The notes under the pieces: generated by a model
Database searches by the model: none
Told to the model about the DNA's origin: nothing
The model's input: the letters and a program-made list of their open reading frames with translations, nothing else
Program-made: the position numbers and the translations under genes
Part shown: positions 17,686 through 59,619 of the stretch, piece by piece
Position numbering within the stretch: the stretch's first letter is position 1
Layout of the letters: each line of letters starts with the position of its first letter
Assembly (NCBI GenBank): GCA_032622095.1
Contig: CP136067.1
Span: 199,230,052 to 199,294,051, forward strand
Origin: Siphonodentalium dalli
Taxonomy: Eukaryota > Mollusca > Scaphopoda > Gadilida > Siphonodentaliidae
Length of the DNA: 64,000 bases
Direction: 5' to 3'

Positions 17686-19773
17686 CAGTTTAATCTGTGA
17701 TGGGGGTGTTTCTTATACAGTTTAATATGTGATGGGGGTGTTTCTTATACAGTTTAATCTGTGATGGGGGTGTTTCTTATACAGTTTAATCTGTGATGGG
17801 GGTGTTTCTTATACAGTTTAATCTGTGATGGGGGTGTTTCTTATACAGTTTAATCTGTGATGGGGGTGTTTCTTATACAGTTTAATCTGTGATGGGGGTG
17901 TTTCTTATACAGTTTAATCTGTGATGGGGGTGTTTCTTATACAGTTTAATCTGTGATGGGGGTGTTTCTTATACAGTTTAATCTGTGATGGGGGTGTTTC
18001 TTATACAGTTTAATCTGTGATGGGGGTGTTTCTTATACAGTTTAATCTGTGATGGGGGTGTTTCTTATACAGTTTAATCTGTGATGGGGGTGTTTCTTAT
18101 ACAGTTTAATCTGTGATGGGGGTGTTTCTTATACAGTTTAATCTGTGATGGGGGTGTTTCTTATACAGTTTAATCTGTGATGGGGGTGTTTCTTATACAG
18201 TTTAATCTGTGATGGGGGTGTTTCTTATACAGTTTAATCTGTGATGGGGGTGTTTCTTATACAGTTTAATCTGTGATGGGGGTGTTTCTTATACAGTTTA
18301 ATCTGTGATGGGGGTGTTTCTTATACAGCTTAATCTGTAATGGGGGTGTTTCTTATACAGTTTAATCTGTGATGGGGGTGTTTCTTATACAGTTTAATCT
18401 GTGATGGGGGTGTTTCTTATACAGCTTAATCTGTGATGGGGGTGTTTCTTATACAGCTTAATCTGTGATGGGGGTGTTTCTTATACAGCTTAATCTGTGA
18501 TGGGGGTGTTTCTTATACAGTTTAATCTGTGATGGGGGTGTTTCTTATACAGTTTAATCTGTGATGGGGGTGTTTCTTATACAGTTTAATCTGTGATGGG
18601 GGTGTTTCTTATACAGTTTAATCTGTGATGGGGGTGTTTCTTATACAGTTTAATCTGTGATGGGGGTGTTTCTTATACAGTTTAATCTGTGATGGGGGTG
18701 TTTCTTATACAGTTTAATCTGTGATGGGGGTGTTTCTTATACAGTTTAATCTGTGATGGGGGTGTTTCTTATACAGTTTAATCTGTGATGGGGGTGTTTC
18801 TTATACAGCTTAATCTGTGATGGGGGTGTTTCTTATACAGTTTAATCTGTGATGGGGGTGTTTCTTATACAGTTTAATCTGTGATGGGGGTGTTTCTTAT
18901 ACAGCTTATTCTGTGATGGGGTGTTTCTTATACAGTTTAATCTGTGATGGGGGTGTTTCTTATACAGCTTAATCTGTGATGGGGGTGTTTCTTATACAGC
19001 TTAATATGTGATGGGGGTGTTTCTTATACAGCTTAATCTGTGATGGGGGTGTTTCTTATACAGTTTAATCTGTGATGGGGGTGTTTCTTATACAGCTTAA
19101 TCTGTGATGGGGGTGTTTCTTATACAGTTTAATCTGTGATGGGGGTGTTTCTTATACAGTTTAATCTGTGATGGGGGTGTTTCTTATACAGTTTAATCTG
19201 TGATGGGGGTGTTTCTTATACAGTTTAATCTGTGATGGGGGTGTTTCTTATACAGTTTAATCTGTGATGGGGGTGTTTCGTATACAGTTTAATCTGTGAT
19301 GGGGGTGTTTCTTATACAGCTTAATATGTGATGGGGGTGTTTCTTATACAGCTTAATCTGTGATGGGGGTGTTTCTTATACAGTTTAATCTGTGATGGGG
19401 GTGTTTCTTATACAGCTTAATCTGTGATGGGGGTGTTTCTTATACAGTTTAATCTGTGATGGGGGTGTTTCTTATACAGTTTAATCTGTGATGGGGGTGT
19501 TTCTTATACAGTTTAATCTGTGATGGGGGTGTTTCTTATACAGTTTAATCTGTGATGGGGGTGTTTCTTATACAGTTTAATCTGTGATGGGGGTGTTTCG
19601 TATACAGTTTAATCTGTGATGGGGGTGTTTCTTATACAGCTTAATCTGTGATGGGGGTGTTTCTTATACAGTTTAATCTGTGATGGGGGTGTTTCTTATA
19701 CAGCTTAATCTGTGATGGGGGTGTTTCTTATACAGCTTAATCTGTGATGGGGGTGTTTCTTATACAGTTTAAT
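17686..19773 (+). repeat. 32-bp minisatellite, about 65 units, with 320-bp higher-order period
   Basis: Highly uniform 32-base units made of CAGTTTAATCTGTGATGG, GGGTGTTT and CTTATA. Main variants are CAGCTTAAT for CAGTTTAAT, ATATG for ATCTG, TTCGTATA for TTCTTATA, and one unit with four G's instead of five. Two variant markers recur exactly 320 bases apart (ATATG at 19000 and 19320; CGTATA at 19280 and 19600), so ten-unit blocks were duplicated. It lies in lectin intron 2. Confidence 0.96.
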
Positions 19774-43685: not shown

Positions 43686-45316
43686 CAGGGGCGTTACTAG
43701 AATGTCTCCATTTGGGGTGTCCAATATGAAATAATGGCATCCCCGTAAACCAGACCAAAGTCCTATATTCGCGAAGTTCCATTTGCACCCCCGTGTGTCG
43801 GAATGGAACTTTCCAGCTAGTACCTCAAACTCTCCAACCTGTCAGCCCCGAAAAGTGTCCAACCTGTCAGCGCCGAAAAGTGTCCAACCTGTCACCCCCG
43901 AAAAGTGTCCAACCTGTCACCCCCGAAAAGTGTCCAACCTGTCACCCTTGAAAAGTGTCCAACCTGTCACCCCCCGAAAAGTGTCCAACATGTCACCCCG
44001 AAGAGTGTCCAACCTGTCACCCCCGAAAAGTGTCCAACATGTCACCCCCGAAAAGTGTCCAACCTGTCACCCCCCGAAAAGTGTCCAACCTGTCACCCCC
44101 GAAAAGTGTCCAACCTGTCACCCCCGAAAAGTGTCCAACCTGTCACCCCCGAAAAGTGTCCAACCTGTCATCCCCGAAAAGTGTCCAACCTGTCATCCCC
44201 GAAAAGTGTCAAACCTGTCACCCCCGAAAAGTGTCCAACCTGTCATCCCCGAAAAGTGTCCAACCTGTCATCCCCGAAAAGTGTCCAACCTGTCATCCCC
44301 GAAAAGTGTCCAACCTGTCAGCCCCGAAAAGTGTCCAACCTGTCACCCCCGAAAAGTGTTCAACCTGTCATCCCCGAAAAGTGTCCAACCTGTCACCCCC
44401 GAAAAGTGTCCAACCTGTCATCCCCGAAAAGTGTCCAACCTGTCACCCCCGAAAAGTTTCCAACCTGTCACCCCCGAAAAGTGTCCAACCTGTCACCCCC
44501 GAAAAGTGTCCAACCTGTCATCCCCGAAAAGTGTCCAACCTGTCAGCCCCGAAAAGTGTCCAACCTGTCAGCCCCGAAAAGTGTCCAACCAGTCAGCCCC
44601 GAAAACTGTCCAGCCTGTCAGCCCCGAAAAGTGTTCAACCTGTCAGCCCCGAAAAGTGTCCAACCTGTCACCCCCCGAAAAGTGTCCAACCTGTCACCCC
44701 CGAAAAGTGTCCAACCTGTCAGCCCCGAAAAGTGTTCAACCTGTCAGCCCCGAAAAGTGTCCAACCTGTCAGCCCCGAAAAGTGTCCAACCTGTCACCCC
44801 CGAAAACTGTTCAACCTGACACCCCCGAAAACTGTTCAACCTGTCAGCCCCGAAAAGTGATCAACCTGTCACCCCCGAAAAGTGTTCAACCTGTCACCTC
44901 CCGAAAAGTTTTCAATCTGTCACCCCCGAAAAGTGTTCAACCTGTCAGCCCCGAAAAGTGTTCAACCTGTCAGCCACGAAAAGTTTTCAACCTGTCAGCC
45001 ACGAAATGTTCAACATGTCAGCCCCGAAAACTGTCCAGCCTGTCACCCCCCGAAAAGTGTTCAACCTGTCAGCCCCGAAAAGTGTTCAACTGATGCATGG
45101 TCAATACCGACCTAAATGTTGGCCGAAAGTAGAAAATGTTATAAGTTATATGTTGGTGTTGGTTTAGAAATAACATTCCACCAACTAATGGTTGGAAATT
45201 AGAACAATTCGAACTATTTCCAGATATAAATAGTGCAAGATTTCCAACTGGTGTTGTGTCAGGCAAGATATTTCCAACTTAAACAGTTCGGCCATTTAAT
45301 AATAGCCACATCCCTG
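43686..45316. mobile_element. hAT-like element that contains the 25-bp minisatellite
   Basis: The left end CAGGGGCGTTACTAGAATGT, then CTCCATTTGGGGTG, aligns with the left ends at 31361 and 58204. The right end AATAGCCACATCCCTG matches the right end at 59375. Flanking octamers ACTATATA and ACTACAAG agree at five of eight positions, a weak target duplication. The interior after the array (GGTTGGAAATTAGAACAATT, GATTTCCAACTGGTGTTGTG) is family sequence. Confidence 0.6.
43831..45090 (+). repeat. 25-bp minisatellite, about 50 units
   Basis: Units of 25 bases: TCCAACCTGTCA, CCCCCGAAAAG, TG. Variants include GTCAGCCCC, GTCATCCCC, TTCAACC for TCCAACC and one-base length changes. The unit has no stop in any plus frame, so frames of 436, 304 and 301 codons overlap. 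A family fragment CCAACCTGACACCCCCCACG at 31660 looks like the single-copy ancestor of the unit. Confidence 0.95.
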
Positions 45317-50645: not shown

Positions 50646-50813
50646 TTTGGGAAATTCTATACCATAGTTGACAATGGTTAGCATTATTTTGTTGCAATTA
50701 ATCGATTCTGATAACTAAAGCGTCTTTTGAAGAAATGTTGTTGTTGCTGTATCTTGATGATATGGGGACCCTCAAATCGGAATGAGTACCTTTAAAATTA
50801 AACTTTGTGAATT

Positions 50814-51078
50814 ATGTGGGGGTGCGACCGATCCGGATGTACACTGGTACGGATTCGTGGCTAGTTATTTGTGTTCAGAGTCATATACGGATGCACGCTG
50901 GTATAGGATATAGGATACGGATGCATGCTGGTACCATATTTAACATAACCAAATTTGATACCAGCATGCAACCGTATCCTATATACCGGTGTGTCTCCGT
51001 ATATGACTCTGAACACAAACACTCAGTCGTGAATCTGTACCCGTACCAGTGTTCATCCGGATTGGTCGTCCCCGTGAT
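50814..51078. mobile_element. Foldback element, arms about 120 bp
   Basis: The left arm (GTGGGGGTGCGACCGATCCG, GTGTTCAGAGTCATATACGG, GCATGCTGGTACCA) is mirrored by the right arm 50957-51076. The GGATGCACGCTGGTA and GGATACGGATGCATGCTGGT blocks are related to each other, so each arm contains a short repeat. Loop of about 15 bases. Non-coding. Confidence 0.85.
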
Positions 51079-51372
51079 TATTAACTCGCGTTATTTCGTG
51101 CTATTTCGCCCAAAGGGAGACTATAACTTGGGAAAGTTGGATTTCACTATGTCAACAGATTTCACATGTGTCACTTGGTTTACCAATATGAGTAAATGTT
51201 AGCCCGAAATTACCATTGCTTTTCTTTGTTATCATATGGAATTGTATTAAACCAGCTCCGAATCGGATCAAATCAGCCCAATATATATTGGCATGTGTCA
51301 ATGGTACAACTGTATACCGAGAACAATCAGCAACAATAAATAAAGATGCATGCATCAGATCGCCCATGAATT

Positions 51373-51423
51373 AGTATATATATTTTTTGGGAAATCTGTG
51401 TGTGGGTGTGTGGGTGTGTGAGG

Positions 51424-51458
<35 letters not shown>

Positions 51459-52060
51459 AGGGACGGTGTGCGAGGGTGTGTGTGTGTGTGTGTGTCTGTC
51501 TGTCTGTGTGTTCGCGATGGACTCGAAAACGACAGAACCGATTTCGATGAAACTTGGTATGTGGGGGTACTTTCGGCCGGGGAGTGGCATGGGCCTGTTA
51601 ATTTGCCCGTGCGACGTGACATTGACCTTGAAATCGGGTCATTTCAAGTTCAAACGCCCGAGTATCACGGGATTTCGATGAAAATTAGTGTCTAGGGATA
51701 CTTTCGTATGGGGAGTGTCGTAAGCCTATTCGTTTGGGTCAATTCAAGGTCAAATCGTGAAATTTTATGGGATTTCGACGAAATTTGATACGTGGGGTTA
51801 CTTTTGTCCACTGAGTGTTTTGGACGGGTCAAATCGTGACCCCGACCTGACCTTCAAAATGATCAATTCGAGGTCAAATCTGGTAAAACCGGATGGATTT
51901 CGACGGGTACTTTTGTCGGGTACTTTTGTCCGGGCATTGTTTTCGACGGACCCCCCCCCCCTGACCTTGACCTTCAAAATGGACAATTCAAGGTCAAATC
52001 GCGCAATTCGCCGAAAAGCAGAGGGGAAACAGCCCGGACGAAGTCGGGTCCACCTGCTAA
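51373..52060 (+). mobile_element. Helitron-like non-autonomous element, diverged copy
   Basis: The TG/TCTG microsatellite, CGATGAAACTTGGTATGTGG, TTGACCTTGAAATCGGGTCA and final CCCGGACGAAGTCGGGTCCA then CCTGCTAA match the 26-kb copies. The end is CTAA rather than CTAG, still within the Helitron CTRR rule. The start is eroded. Confidence 0.65.
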
Positions 52061-52269
52061 AACGGGTAATGTCCAATTATTCATTTTATGCTTGTTCTTG
52101 GTAACCACTTAATGAGTATTTTAAATGAAATTTGTGACGTGAAATGAAGTAAAAAATGATACGATATTTTGTACATGGACGGAAACTTTGTAGTGGCGTA
52201 TTTACGATGAGAAGAAGCAAATAGTTAATTAAAAGTAGAATAGTTCATATTATTACTGAAGTAAATAGG

Positions 52270-52935
52270 TTTATAAAAATGTGAATTAAAACATTAAACT
52301 CAATACCATGTGCGTGTGTTCACAGCGGGTCACAGGTAGGGACGCAGTGCCAGGAGTTGGGGTGTAAGTATTTATATTGTATGGGACACTGTCGGGTCTA
52401 TTTGAAAATTTCATGTGCATATATTCACGTCATGTCATCACATATAGGGACGCGACGACAGGTGGTTGGGGTGCACGTATGTACTTTTTTTTCTAATATT
52501 GATTGTGACACTGCCGGGTCTGTTTGACAATTCCGTGTGCATGTTCTCACGACTGGTTATATGTAGTGACGCGTCGACATGGGGTTGACGTGTATGCACT
52601 TATATTGCATGGGACCATGTATGTTTGAACATTTCATGTGCATGTTTTCACATGTCATAATATGGCCATGTAGAGACGTGGCGACATGGGGTTAGGGTGT
52701 ACGTACTAATATTGCATGGGACACTGTCTGGTTTATTTGATTATTTCATGTGTATGTCATCAAGGCTGATCACATCACCACAGAGGCGTGACACATGGGG
52801 TTGGTGTACGTATACTTATATTGCATGCAACACTGTCGGGTCGGTTTGAACATTTCATGTGTATGTTCTCATGGCTGGTCACAGCGGCGTGGTACGAGGG
52901 GTTGGGTATACATACTTTTATTGCATTTGATTATA
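52270..52935. repeat. Degenerate tandem repeat of about 110 bp, six units
   Basis: Repeated order TTTCATGTGCATGT..TCAC, GGGACGCGACGACATGGGGT, GTACGTA..TTATATTGCATG, GGACACTGTCGGGT at about 110-base spacing. Units are 70-85 percent alike by eye. Confidence 0.75.
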
Positions 52936-52939
52936 TAGG

Positions 52940-53470
52940 CAGCATCTTCTATTTGATATATCTCAAATTGCATATGTATAATTGTGGTGACAAGTAGATA
53001 AGCTGACGTTTCTTTTCCGAATTCCGGAAACATGAACCCCAACATCCATCTTGGATTTTACTCTTTGCATCATTAAAGTCTTTGGAATACGTTACAGCCC
53101 CATTTGTTCGTCTGCATATTGGATGTGTGACGATTTGAATCTATCGGCAAACCATATAGCCCACATTTATGAGCAGGTAATTATCAAATTGTACATGCAC
53201 GATCAAGCTTCATATCTAGGGCAATTTGGCCATGTAAGCACCATGCATGTGCTTGTTCGTGAGTACACCAGACATCTCGTTCTGATAGATGCGTATATTT
53301 GAAGTTCTAATATTAAATGTATAACATTTCCCCATGTACGTGACTATTTTTTGTAAAATAATTCATCGGCGATCTGATGCATGCATCTTCTTTTCTTGTT
53401 ATTATATGATGTACTGTAATACAATATTCTCGTTCAGTCATGGACACCGAGTTATCGGCAGTCGACGACT
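52940..53470. other. No gene recognised; inverted match to 51.35 kb
   Basis: GATCTGATGCATGCATCTTC at about 53370 is the reverse complement of sequence at about 51345 (GATGCATGCATCAGATCGCC). No gene seen. Confidence 0.5.
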
Positions 53471-53476
53471 CCAAAT

Positions 53477-54240
53477 AACATATCACGAACCCCTCCCAAC
53501 CATCCCGCGGCGGAACCCATCTGTGCATACCAATCGGTGTAACATATCACGAACCTCTCCCAACCATCCCGCGGCGGAACCCATCTGTGCATACCAATCA
53601 GTGTAACATATCACGAACCCCTCCCAACCATCCCGCGGCGGAACCCATCTGTGCATACCAATCGGTGTAACATATCACGAACCCCTCCCAACCATCCCGC
53701 GGCGGAACCCATCTGTGCATACCAATCAGTGTAACATATCACGAACCCCTCCCAACCATCCCGCGGCGGAACCCATCTGTGCATACCAATCAGTGTAACA
53801 TATCACGAACCCCTCCCAACCATCCCGCGGTGGAACCCATCTGTGTATATCAATCAGTGTAACATATCACGAACCCCTCCCAACCATCCCGCGGCGGAAC
53901 CCATCTGTGCATACCAATCAGTGTAACATATCACGAACCCCTCCCAACCATCCCGCGGCGGAACCCATCTGTGCATACCAATCAGTGTAACATATCACGA
54001 ACCCCTCCCAACCATCCCGCGGTGGAACCCATCTGTGTATATCAATCAGTGTAACATATCACGAACCCCTCCCAACCATCCCGCGGCGGAACCCATCTGT
54101 GTATACCAATCAGTGTAACATATCACGAACCCCTCCCAACCAGCCCGCGGCGGATTCCATCTCTGTATACCAATCGGTGTAACATATCACGACACAACCT
54201 CCCAACCATCCCGCGGCGGAACCCATCTATGTATACCAAT
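53477..54240 (-). repeat. 64-bp minisatellite, reversed block (about 12 units)
   Basis: Tandem units spaced 64 bases apart, each with the complement of the GATATGTTACACYGATTGGT and GGTTCCGCCGCGGGATGGTT blocks. Units are very similar (C/T change in the CGGTGTA/CAGTGTA part, GCATACC/GTATATC variants). It lies downstream of the minus-strand SDR exon in the same gene-relative orientation as the right-hand array. Confidence 0.93.
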
Positions 54241-54242
54241 GG

Positions 54243-54410
54243 TAATGATTGACCAATATTTTTCAAATTGCTTGCGGAATTAAAAAGTGACTTGCCCAAC
54301 TTTTGCCAAATGAAAATATTTTTTGCCAAATGAAAATATTTTTTGCCAAATGTGAATTATTTTTGCCATTGTCAAATTTGGCAAGTGGCAGTGCGAACCC
54401 TGGACACAAG
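54243..54410. repeat. Short 19-bp tandem repeat in left SDR intron
   Basis: Three copies of a block around TTTTGCCAAATGAAAATAT, then degenerate TTGCCATTGTCAAATTTGGC. This segment has no counterpart in the right arm, so it is an insertion specific to the left copy or a loss on the right. Confidence 0.65.
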
Positions 54411-54417
54411 TACTCAC

Positions 54418-54549
54418 CTGAATAGCGGCGACATTCCGGGCACACCCGATGACGATCATCCCCTCCCGAGAAAGTCGTTTAGCAATGACAGCCCCTATCC
54501 CAGAAGATGCACCGGTGACCAGCACTTTGCGTCCATGCCACTTCTCCAT
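54418..54549 (-). CDS. SDR-family dehydrogenase (DHRS11-like), first coding exon, mirror minus-strand copy
   Basis: This is the mirror copy of the SDR first exon: 44 codons with TGASSGIG, and the same CAG|GTGAGT donor. Against the plus copy I count two substitutions in 132 bases, His for Arg at residue 5 and a synonymous change in Arg38. The surrounding palindrome arms are more diverged: an approximately 80-base stretch just upstream of the start is present in the plus copy and replaced here by a CT-rich segment. The intron runs left through a short ATTTTTTGCCAAATGAAA repeat and then the 64-bp minisatellite. No second exon is visible to the left. It may be a real second gene, a dead duplicate or an assembly fold-back. 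Confidence 0.72.
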
Positions 54550-55105
54550 AATCACACCACGAACGAAACACAGAGAGAGAGATATGTTTATTGCATCGCT
54601 GTGCAAACAATAACGCGTATTCAAGATATGCAAACAACTTTGTTTGGATAAAATAGTATGGAACGCCGTATAGCTTCCTTGTGTTAAGCTCAAGCAATAT
54701 AATTATGTGGTTAATAAATCAATTTATGTGTTTAGGTAGTCAATATCTGCAGGTATTTTGCCAATATATGTGGTTATAGTTAGTCAATATAATGATATTG
54801 ACTAACTAACCACATTATTATATTGGCAAAATACCTGCATATACATTGGCTACCTAAACACATAAATTGATTTATTAACCACATAATTATATTGCTTGAG
54901 CTTAACACAAGGAAGCTGTACGGCGTTCCATACTATTTTATCCAAACAATGTTGTTTGCATATCTTGAATACACATTATTGTTCGCACATGCAGCGATGC
55001 AATTTATCAAACAGTTTTACAATGCGCGTTGAACTGGGATCTGGCTAACGTCCGATACTTGTGTTATACATGTGCTAGCTGTCTTGTGTCGTTAGTTGTG
55101 TGATT

Positions 55106-55237
55106 ATGGAGAAGTGGCGTGGACGCAAAGTGCTGGTCACCGGTGCATCTTCTGGGATAGGGGCTGTCATTGCTAAACGACTTTCTCGGGAGGGGATGAT
55201 CGTCATCGGGTGTGCCCGTAATGTCGCCGCTATTCAG
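55106..55237 (+). CDS. SDR-family dehydrogenase (DHRS11-like), first coding exon, plus-strand copy
   Basis: This exon encodes 44 residues starting MEKWRGRKVLVTGASSGIGA and ending CARNVAAIQ. It has the complete Rossmann start of a short-chain dehydrogenase/reductase: the hydrophobic strand VLVTG, the dinucleotide-binding TGASSGIG motif, the helix AVIAKRLSREG, and strand two MIVIGCAR, whose terminal arginine commonly favours NADP(H). The MEKW...VVGCAR-type context is that of the DHRS11 group of NADPH-dependent ketosteroid/carbonyl reductases (from memory of the family). The exon ends exactly at CAG|GTGAGT, phase 0. The intron then enters the 64-bp minisatellite. Catalytic Ser-Tyr-Lys residues would be in later exons beyond the window. 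It differs from the mirror copy at two bases, one of them changing residue 5 (Arg here, His there). Confidence 0.85.
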
Positions 55238-55259
55238 GTGAGTATACTTGTGTCAGTTG

Positions 55260-58203
55260 TGTCGTGATAAAGTAACACTGATTGGTTCCGCCGCGGGATG
55301 GTTGGGAGGTTGTGTCGTGATATGTTACACCGATTGGTATACACAGATGGGTTCCACTGCGGGATGGTTGGGAGGGGTTCGTGATATGTTACACCGATTG
55401 ATATACAGAGATGGGTTCCGCCGCGGGATAGTTGGGAGGGGTTCGTGATATGTTACACTGATTGGTATACACAGATGGGTATCGCCGCGGGATGGTTGGG
55501 AGGTTGTGTCGTGATTTGTTACACCGTTTGGTATACAGAGATGGGTTCCGCCGCGGGATGGTTGGGAGGGGTTCGTGATATGTTACACTGATGGGTATAC
55601 ACAGATGGGTTCCGACGCGGGATGATTTGGAGGGGTTCGTGATATGTTACACTGATTGGTATACACAGATGGACTCCGCCGCGGGATGGTTGGGAGGTCG
55701 TGTCGTGATATGTTACACTGGTTGGTATACAGCGATGGGTTCCGCCGCGGGATGGTTGGGAGGTTGTGTCGTGATATGATACACTGATTGGTATACACAG
55801 ATGGACTCCGCCGCGGGATGGTTGGGAGGGGTTCGTGATATGTTACACTGATTGGTATACAGAGATGGGTTCCACCACGGGATGGTTGGGAGGGGTTCGT
55901 GATATGTTACACCGATTGGTATACACAGATGGGTTCCGCCGCGGGATGGTTGGGAGGGGTTCGTGATATGATACACTGATTGGTATACACATATGGACTC
56001 CGCCGCGGGATGGTTGGGAGGTTGTGTCGTGATATGTTACACCGATTGGTATACAGCGATGGGTTCCACCGCGGGATGGTTGGGAGGGGTTCGTGATAAA
56101 GTAACACCGATTGGTATTAACAGATGGGTTCCACCGCGGGATGGTTGGGAGGGGTTCGTGATATGTTACACCGATTGGTATACACATATGGCTTCCGCCG
56201 CGGGATGGTTGGGAGGGGTTCGTGATATGTTACACCGATTGGTATACACAGATGGACTCCGCCGCGGGATGGTTGGGAGGGGTTCGTGATAAAGTAACAC
56301 CGATTGATATACACAGATGGGTTCCGCCGGGGGATGGTTGGGAGGGGTTCGTGATATGTTACACCGATTGGTATACAGAGATGGGTTCCGCCGCGGGATG
56401 GTTGGGAGGGGTTCGTGATATGTTACAACGATTGATATACACCGATGGGTTCCGCCGCGGGATGGTTGAGATGTTGTGTCGTGATATGTTACACTGATTG
56501 GTATACAGAGATGGGTTCCGCCGCGGGGTGGTTGGGAGGAGTTCGTGATATGTTACACCGATTGATATACACAGATGGGTTCCGCCGCGGGATGGTTGGG
56601 AGGGGTTCGTGATATGTTACACCGATTGATATACACAGATGGGTTCCGCCGCGGGATGGTTGGGAGGGGTTCGTGATATGTTACACCGATTGATATACAC
56701 AGATGGGTTCCGCCGCGGGATGGTTGGGAGGGGTTCGTGATATGTTACACCGATTGATATACACAGATGGGTTCCGCCGCGGGATGGTTGGGAGGGGTTC
56801 GTGATATGTTACACTGATTGGTATACAGAGGTGGGTTCCGCCGCGGGGTGGTTGGGAGGGCTTCGTGATATGTTACACTGATTGGTATACAGAGATGGGT
56901 TCCGCCGCGAGGTGGTTGGGAGGTGTTCGTGATATGTTACACTGATTGGTATACAGAGATGGGTTCCGCCGCGGGATGGTTGGGAGGGGTTCGTGATATG
57001 TTACACTGATTGGTATACAGAGATGGGTTCCGCCGCGGGGTGGTTGGGAGGGGTTCGTGATATGTTACACCGATTGATATACACAGATGGGTTCCGCCGC
57101 GGAATGGTTGGGAGGGGTTCGTGATATGTTACACTGATTGGTATACAGAGATGGGTTCCGCCGCAGGACGGTTGGGAGGGGTTCGAGATATGTTACTCTG
57201 ATTGGTATACGGAGATGGGTTCCGCCGCGGGGTGTTGGGAGGGGTTCGTGATATGATACACTGATTGGTACACAGAAATGGGTTCCGCCGCGCGATGGTT
57301 GGGAGGGGTTCGTGATATGTTACACCGATTGGTAAACAGAGATGGGTTCCGCCGCGGGATGGTTGGGAGGGGTTCGTGATATGTTACTCCGATTGATATA
57401 CACAGATGGGTTCCGCCGCGGGATGGTTGGGAGGGGTTCGTGATATGTTACACCGATTGGTATATAGAGATGGGTTCCGCCGCGGGATGGTTGGGAGGGG
57501 TTCGTGATATGTTACACTGATTGGTACACAGAGATGGGTTCCGCCGCGCGATGGTTGGGAGGGGTTCGTGATATGTTACACCGATTGGTAAACAGAGATG
57601 GGTTCCGCCGCGGGATGTTTGGAGGGGTTGGTGAAATGTTACAACCATTGGTATACACAGATCGGTTCCGCCACGGGATGGTTGGGAAGTTGTGCCGTGA
57701 TATGATACACTGATTGGTATACACAGATGGGTTCCGCCGCGGGATGGTTGGGATGTTGTGTCGTGATATGTTACACTGATTGGTATACAGAGATTGGTTC
57801 CGCCGCGGGGTGGTTGGGAGGTTGTGTCGTGATATGTTACTCTGATTGGTATACAGAGATGGGTTCCGCCGCGGGGTGTTGGGAGGGGTTCGTGATATGT
57901 TACACCGATTGGTAAACAGAGATGGGTTCCGCCGCGGGATGGTTGGAGGGGTTCGTGAAATGTTACAACGATTGGTATACACAGATGGGTTCCGCCGCGG
58001 GATGGTTGGAGGGGTTCGTGATATGTTACACCGATTGGTATACACAGATGGGTTCCACCGCGGGTTGGTCGGGAGGGGTTAGTGATATGTTACACCGATT
58101 GGTATACAGACATGGGTTCCGCCGCGGGATGGTTGGGAGGGGTTCGTGATATGTTTCGCTGATTGGTACATACAGATGGGTTCCGCCGCGGGATGGTTGG
58201 GAG
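55260..58203 (+). repeat. 64-bp minisatellite, main forward array (about 46 units)
   Basis: Tandem units of about 64 bases with the core GGTTCCGCCGCGGGATGGTT. Two alternating tail types occur: GGGAGGGGTTCGTGATATG and GGGAGGTTGTGTCGTGATATG. Variants include GATAAAGTAACAC for GATATGTTACAC and GGGGTGGTT for GGGATGGTT. Reading frames through it are repeats of one peptide in each frame and are not gene-like. It begins about 20 bases after the SDR donor site, so it is intronic. Confidence 0.95.
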
Positions 58204-59375
58204 CAGGGATGTGGCTAGAGGGAGGTGTGGGGGGTGTCTCACCCCCCAGCAGAGAGCTATATTTTCAATAGTTGGAAATTTCATACCTGCCTCAACGAAA
58301 TTTCACACAAACAATAGGTTGAAAATGTTCTTGTAGTTTGATTATAGAACAATTTATTGGGGGAATTTATTGTTTTTCGACCAATATTTGCATATGTTCC
58401 TATTTTTGGTCAAAATTTTTGACAGAAATGGTCATCAGTTGGAAATTTTCCAACCTTAGGGGGGTGACAGGTCGGAAATTCCAACACTTGGAAAGCTTGT
58501 GTCCTGGTCTCTCCCCCGTGGCCAGTCAAAAACTTCTAGTTAATTTAAGAAAACAATATTGTCATACAATTGGTCAACATTGTCATTGGAATTTTAATCA
58601 GTTTGAAAATTTCCAACCTAAGTGGGGGTGTAGGGTTTGAAATTTCCAACAGTAGGAAGGCTTGAGGCTAGTCTAGATGTTAGGATTTTGCGATTTTCTT
58701 GTTCAGATTTCAAATTTTTCGCACACCGGGCCGAACCATGGTCGGCCCGGTGTGTCATTGCCCCATCCACATGGCCAATACAAAACTGCTAATTAGTTTA
58801 GCAAAACAATATTTTACTACATTTGGTCAAACTTGTAGACATAAATGGTCATCAGTTAAAGAATTTTCCAACCTGAGGGGGAGTATGAGGTTTGAAATTT
58901 CCAACACTAGGAAGGCTTCAGTTGAGGCCAGTCTAGATGCTAGGATTTGCGATTTTCTTGTATAGTTTTCAAAATTTTCTCACACCGGGCCGAACAACCA
59001 TGGTCGGCCCGGTGTTTCCTGGTCTGTTGTCGGTAGCTGTGTGCATTTGTCTGGAATTAGATCACTAGTTGTTTTTTTTGGGGCAATTTTCAGGTTAAAA
59101 TATCTTAATGTTCTCATACTGGGAAAATAGAAGCATGGCTTATGAATATATAGGAATTTAGGCCTGAGCGTGAGGTACAAGGGGCGGGGGTGGTGCAAAT
59201 GGAATTATGCAAAAAGTTGTGTTGGTGTGATTCCGACTCAAAGGGGGGGGTGCAAATGGAATTATGCAAAAAGTTGTGTTGGTGTGAGTCCGACTCAAGG
59301 GGGGGGGTGCAGTTGGAAATTCCCAAGGTGGACGCCCCCCCCCCCCCCAGCGGAGACCCTCTAGCCACATCCCTG
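58204..59375. mobile_element. hAT-like non-autonomous transposon with perfect 8-bp target duplication
   Basis: The 64-bp array is interrupted by 1172 bases that start CAGGGATGTGGCTAGAGGG and end with the complement CCTCTAGCCACATCCCTG. The flanks are an exact 8-base duplication, GTTGGGAG, at 58196-58203 and 59376-59383, which is part of the array unit. An 8-bp duplication with CAGGG termini is the hAT signature. The interior has no transposase frame. It holds repeated TTGGAAATTTCCAAC blocks, two copies of a roughly 270-bp unit, two hairpins with CACCGGGCCGA arms, and C/G homopolymer tracts near the right end. Confidence 0.88.
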
Positions 59376-59592
59376 GTTGGGAGGTTGTGTCGTGATATGT
59401 TTCACTGATTGGTACATACAGTTGGGTTCCGCCGCGGGATGGTTGGGAGGGGTTCGTGATATGTTACTCTGATTGGTATACACATATGGCTTCCGCCGCG
59501 GGATGGTTGGGAGGGGTTCGTGATATGTTACACCGATTGGCATACACAGATGGACTCCGCCGCGGGATGGTTGGGAGGTTGTGTCGTGATAC
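59376..59592 (+). repeat. 64-bp minisatellite, middle block (about 3 units)
   Basis: The array resumes after the hAT-like element with the duplicated GTTGGGAG and runs until GTGTCGTGATA, where LINE-B begins. Confidence 0.9.
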
Positions 59593-59619
59593 GATACGAT
59601 ACGATTTATTTGCATAAAC

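Follow-up and report, generated by a model that had tools for sequence, protein, structure and literature searches.

In a window of 64,000 nucleotides from the genome of Siphonodentalium dalli (C7:199230052-199294051, the whole stretch of DNA analysed here), two first exons of a DHRS11-like short-chain dehydrogenase gene lie head to head in a palindrome. In the assembly, the exon on the plus side opens a gene that continues beyond the window (gene A), and no partner exon is detectable for its mirror image on the minus side. We consider that this structure most probably arose (probability of about 0.78) through a real, fairly recent and local inverted duplication, produced by fold-back or template switching within a stretch of dispersed 21-bp repeats. 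Genome-wide searches covered the S. dalli assembly (2.23 Gb in 9 contigs) and scored the best candidates only, such that absence there means not found. The local analysis covered 264 kb around and including the window, as a single assembly sequence; positions past the window are given as window-equivalents, with the window numbering carried on past its end.

The two exon 1 copies are oriented outward, away from an axis near 54795, and both carry the donor CAG|GTGAGT. The minus copy encodes MEKWHGRKVLVTGASSGIGAVIAKRLSREGMIVIGCARNVAAIQ, and the plus copy encodes the same peptide except for R in place of H. A recount gave two differences in 132 bases, located at codon 5 (CAT, H, in the minus copy; CGT, R, in the plus copy) and at codon 38 (CGG and CGT, respectively, a silent change). 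When the region was searched with BLAST against the minus strand of the window, 54403-54577 paired with 55254-55079 (95%, E 1e-74) and 54600-55003 paired with 54989-54590 (91%, E 7e-156), and these arm-to-arm matches are far beyond chance. The centre of the palindrome reads GTTAGTCAATAT-AATG-ATATTGACTAAC, a short inverted repeat with a 12-bp stem and a 4-base loop, and the inverted copy directly adjoins the original, as in a fold-back inverted duplication. The arms differ by indels of tens of bases: in their alignment 62 bases are missing from the minus arm, while an insert behind the minus donor leaves the plus arm with a 146-base gap. This insert matches a dispersed family over 54238-54403 (1110 first-look candidates, 40 of them scored). 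The initial annotation had described the outward-facing exons with a common donor, their two coding differences and the indels in the arms, and this description of the sequence holds in the assembly. It had also called the palindrome giant; a palindrome is present, and the adjective is generous for a minus arm of only ~1.3 kb.

The plus-side exon belongs to what is apparently a complete, seven-exon DHRS11-like short-chain dehydrogenase gene, in which exons 5 and 7 are less certain than the others. Exons 2, 3, 4 and 6 were found by protein search (E 4e-17 to 6e-6). A pattern search for exons 5 and 7 returned nothing, and the candidates for these two came from an ungapped slide, in which exon 5 as chosen scored 27 against a control best of 22. 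Exons 2-7 have AG and GT borders throughout, and the joined frame of 744 bases is open, with a stop at its end, encoding 247 amino acids from a gene span of 68.4 kb. The predicted protein matches Pfam adh_short (E 2.7e-46) and aligns at full length with residues 27-277 of 1xg5 (E 9.1e-76), which we take to be human DHRS11 (the structure record says ARPG836). The plus copy thus combines a full-length adh_short domain with a best match to DHRS11 over all exons. There are two candidate fifth exons, C7:199346870 (window-equivalent 116819), which has a fitting acceptor, and C7:199348500 (window-equivalent 118449), which has the higher slide score. The latter was passed over because its acceptor is out of phase, and it could be a decayed or alternative exon.

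The minus-side exon is, judged from the sequence, an orphan first exon without exons 2-7. When exon 1 was searched as DNA across the genome, nine places came up (9 candidates, all scored), each within one of three DHRS11-like clusters. For exon 2, 28 candidates yielded 22 matches, eight of them close (86-100%). Each close match lies downstream, on the same strand, of a different exon 1 copy, such that eight of the nine have a partner: two on C7 (+), three on C5 (-) and three on C8 (-). The minus copy is the ninth, and no exon 2 belonging to it turned up genome-wide, where a strongly decayed one below threshold could be missed. In the 124 kb to the left of the palindrome, a DHRS11 search that covers exons 3-7 gave no minus-strand match beyond exon 1 itself. 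On these searches, the minus copy lacks the same-strand exons 2-7 of a DHRS11-like gene, and by the test that the initial annotation itself had proposed, a second exon to the left, it is an isolated fragment; the plus copy has its exon 2. Two complete head-to-head genes are rejected, as the genome-wide search found no exon 2 for a second gene. A dispersed palindromic element carrying exon 1 was likewise rejected, as all nine exon 1 places fall in the three DHRS11-like clusters. The earlier suggestion of a young inverted gene duplication is upheld in its inverted duplication and fails in the word gene, since the copied part comprises only exon 1 with its promoter side and the beginning of intron 1.

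A tandem paralogue of gene A, gene B, lies 87 kb away and bears on the order of events. Upstream of its first exon is the same 21-bp-repeat stretch in a single copy and in the orientation of the plus arm, and no mirror copy was found beside it. Gene B holds one side only of the short inverted repeat at the axis. The single-sided arrangement of gene B therefore probably represents the earlier state, with the mirror arm as the probable addition at gene A. A 2279-bp insert (C7:199370112-199372390) with the ends CGAGTTTGCGAT and ATCGCAAACTCG interrupts the 21-bp stretch and thus the upstream side of gene B.

Comparison of cleanly aligned upstream columns gave 10 differences in 177 between the minus and plus arms, and 12 in 109 between the plus arm and gene B. 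Judged by these small counts, the inverted duplication seems to postdate the tandem duplication of genes A and B. Less cleanly aligned columns towards the ATG and beside the axis are omitted from the counts; with those columns, alignment errors included, the upstream difference is 28/232. At each of the two coding-difference sites, the minus base is present in five of the seven exon 1 copies outside the window (L003, L004, L006, L007 and L008), and the two coding changes therefore probably fell on the plus copy.

The palindromic symmetry reaches the arrays of a 64-bp satellite that flank the two exons, as had been proposed, although it does so out of register. The longest ungapped mirror match joins 53465-54243 with 56428-57206, rather than with the start of the plus array. 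When 11 cut units of the minus array were compared with 40 cut units of the plus array, the best agreement lay at offset 18, with a mean identity of 0.941 as against 0.909 at offset 0, in a broad peak of 0.93-0.94 at offsets 18-23; the mean identity with the gene B array was at most 0.927. This register suggests either a copied stretch of at least 2.4 kb whose near part was then lost, or later growth of the plus array.

These observations are consistent with the following model. A DNA end or nascent strand, located in the 21-bp-repeat stretch upstream of the gene, would fold back on the short inverted repeat, and reverse synthesis would copy at least ~1.3 kb (~2.4 kb on a literal reading of the array register). 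This would set a copy of exon 1, together with the promoter side and the beginning of the satellite-filled intron 1, head to head with the gene on its own upstream side. The copied end would then be joined to other DNA, with gene A remaining intact, and the copy, as an orphan exon, would later lose part of its upstream side and gain a piece of a dispersed element. A shape of this kind is known to result from fold-back or template switching at a short inverted repeat, and short inverted sequences at the boundary are the published signature of fold-back inverted duplications (PMC3907307; PMC10766186). We infer both the fold-back step and the lack of function in the orphan exon. The event looks like an ordinary kind of rearrangement, with the orphan exon as its by-product.

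Several points weigh against this model or against parts of it. The centre of the palindrome is almost spacerless, a form that PMC10766186 describes as unstable, and only one of the two junctions can be read, since the flank that first lay upstream of gene A was not recognised. Gene B could have lost a mirror arm. Relative to gene B, minus-specific changes number 0/132 in the exon and 4/109 upstream (Fisher p 0.04, on tiny numbers), a hint that constraint or gene conversion, rather than plain decay, has acted on the minus exon. When all arm-to-arm differences are counted (2/132 in the exon and 10/177 upstream) p is 0.08, and the counts allow constraint, gene conversion or luck. Two exon 1 copies make it less sure which arm took the coding changes: at the two coding sites the plus base occurs in L043, the most distant copy, and L002 shows it at the first and a third base at the second. 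A less certain direction in turn weakens the case against an assembly error. Regarding gene A itself, exon 7 has a slide score of 21, equal to the best in the control stretch (21), and window-equivalent 118449 outscores the chosen exon 5 (30 versus 27). Finally, the minus arm lacks the 65-bp segment 55003-55067, which scored above all 200 shuffles in six of the seven exon 1 copies outside the window; L043, a normal exon 1 copy, also lacks it, and therefore loss of the segment need not kill the promoter.

Alternatively, the palindrome might be an assembly artefact, with the other haplotype, or a chimeric read, placed in inverted orientation next to the true exon as the minus arm; we regard this as unlikely. 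Assemblers fail at satellite arrays and palindromes, and an arm divergence of a few per cent would fit two haplotypes of an outbred animal. Against this, the 264 kb contain no N bases, and the minus arm has its own dispersed-element insert and its own deletion. The left flank also argues against it. A haplotype fold-back of the simple kind predicts a mirrored intron 1 and exon 2 at left, and neither was found: a comparison of window positions 50795-53476 with the right side gave nothing at E 1e-20, the 64-bp array does not resume to the left of the minus array anywhere in the 264 kb, and searches of the 124 kb and of the whole genome revealed no mirrored exon 2. Between the dispersed repeat and the minus array lie 67 bases (53409-53475) for which neither the 264 kb nor the compared loci gave a noteworthy match. 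Left of 50795 there are matches to the right side in both orientations, the longest of 713 bases, which look like dispersed repeats. The simple head-to-head join of two haplotypes put forward in the initial annotation was rejected on this absence of mirrored intron 1 and mirrored exon 2, and a simple haplotype fold-back is unlikely on these sequence comparisons; a local chimera may still account for the structure.

As to the mechanism, the inverted duplication might instead have been transposon-driven, through alternative transposition or hairpin repair at the ends of a 21-bp-repeat element rather than replication fold-back, a variant that we find doubtful. It draws on the observation that the axis repeats, which have at least 93 matches genome-wide (40 of 224 candidates scored), also lie inside long inverted arms at two other loci. 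These are L033 (C3:2866700-2872700) and L034 (C2:31623650-31629550), with arms of ~1.2 and 1.55 kb at 98.2% and 99.8% identity, respectively, which reach the ends of the fetched stretches. Yet the same repeats form a plain array at L036, gene B has the 21-bp stretch without a mirror arm, and no target-site duplication or complete element end was recognised at the axis.

We consider it improbable that the minus exon is used, with a bidirectional promoter driving it and with splicing to a non-homologous exon further left, or in a non-coding RNA. Its reading frame, ATG and donor are intact, and the lack of minus-specific coding changes noted above would fit; that sample is too small to establish constraint, and youth or gene conversion explain it equally well. 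Use of the exon is further disfavoured by the absence of any homologous exon 2 that could be found and by the lost 65-bp segment, with the reservation concerning L043. The same loss, under the same reservation, weakens the symmetric, shared bidirectional promoter that had been envisaged, and of the two complete genes of a head-to-head pair with such a promoter only one was found. The initial annotation was right about the inverted duplication and not about a duplicated gene, nor about pairing between the 5' parts of the transcripts. The outward RNAs of the two arms are of the same sense (same-sense score 283, complement score 16), and only an RNA crossing the axis could fold back. That selection, or gene conversion between the arms, maintains the orphan exon, with occasional axis-crossing transcription yielding an exon 1 hairpin RNA that would act as a silencing trigger for the eight-gene family, seems to us very improbable.

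Table 1. Positions of the palindrome, its arms and the exons of gene A (we, window-equivalent).
Feature	Position	Strand	Remarks
Orphan exon 1 copy, DHRS11-like	54549-54418	minus	44 codons; ATG and donor intact; no exon 2 partner found
Gene A exon 1, DHRS11-like	55106-55237	plus	exons 2-7 beyond window
Palindrome axis in dispersed 21-bp repeats	54704..54885		centre near 54795
Minus-arm upstream part	54550..54703	minus	without counterpart of 55003-55067
Plus-arm upstream part, promoter / 5' untranslated side of gene A	54886..55105	plus	holds 55003-55067
Minus-arm insert behind donor	54238..54403		dispersed-family match
Minus-arm 64-bp array	53476-54240	minus	12 units
Plus-arm 64-bp array, start of gene A intron 1	55275-58203	plus	46 units
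End of dispersed repeat, left neighbourhood of palindrome	52408..53408		no right-side match at E 1e-20
Gene A exon 2	we 69631-69825	plus	protein search
Gene A exon 3	we 74228-74322	plus	protein search
Gene A exon 4	we 106916-107045	plus	protein search
Gene A exon 5 (less certain)	we 116819-116896	plus	slide score, acceptor, phase
Gene A exon 6	we 120027-120101	plus	protein search
Gene A exon 7 (less certain)	we 123515-123553	plus	acceptor, phase, stop

The 64-bp satellite begins close behind the donor in both tandem genes, with 46 or more units in gene A and 165 units at the same place in intron 1 of gene B. The plus array resumes at 59374-59597, and again from 63310 to window-equivalent 67938. 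Among the copies on C5 and C8, L004, L008 and L007 have a piece of the 64-bp unit just behind the donor that scores above all 300 shuffles, and in L043 such a piece is marginal (26 versus a shuffle maximum of 24). The satellite may therefore have been born from the first, donor-adjacent bases of intron 1, a reading against which stands the finding that L002 and L006 have no remnant of the unit within the first 150 intron bases. The genome search with the satellite lists the neighbourhood of gene A only and misses the 165 units of gene B, and is thus no proof of rarity. The unit, which some relatives carry by the donor as a single piece, has expanded to over 100 units in the two tandem genes. 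The origin of a satellite may thus be traceable to intron sequence, a finding that may be more useful than the orphan exon.

Two insertions were seen within the plus array. The segment 58204-59375 has the inverted ends CAGGGATGTGGCTAGAGG and CCTCTAGCCACATCCCTG and an apparent 8-base target duplication, GTTGGGAG, and presumably represents a hAT-like element. The segment 59600-63270 contains long minus-strand frames that look like an endonuclease and a reverse transcriptase, and we take it to be LINE-like. Elsewhere in the window, the most uniform long array is a 32-bp repeat at 17686-19773 (65 copies, 98% match). A 25-bp array at 43735-45093 (50 copies) reads open in each plus-strand frame, over 302, 332 and 452 codons, as expected because the unit length is not a multiple of three and the unit has no stops. 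Searches gave no Rfam match at gathering scores and no tRNA match.

The locus offers a natural example of a small inverted duplication, in which an orphan promoter side and first exon stand beside the intact gene and a tandem paralogue serves as a reference for the earlier state. A search of one literature library for inverted duplication, bidirectional promoter, first exon and head-to-head arrangement together found no paper with all four, which is a weak test of novelty. As regards the protein, gene A matches DHRS11 (1xg5) over its full length, while the minus copy has the first 44 codons only. With the fold-back inverted duplications of Hermetz et al. 2014 (PMC3907307), the locus shares an inverted copy next to the original, a short inverted sequence at the junction and a spacer at the axis. 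The duplications summarised there are large and were found in patients, whereas the one described here measures ~1.3-2.4 kb, is internal to a chromosome and lies in a reference assembly. The account of ODIRA (PMC10766186) likewise offers a parallel, in that inverted duplications remain where palindromes have eroded; ODIRA begins with a triplication that has two inverted junctions, in contrast to the one junction seen here.

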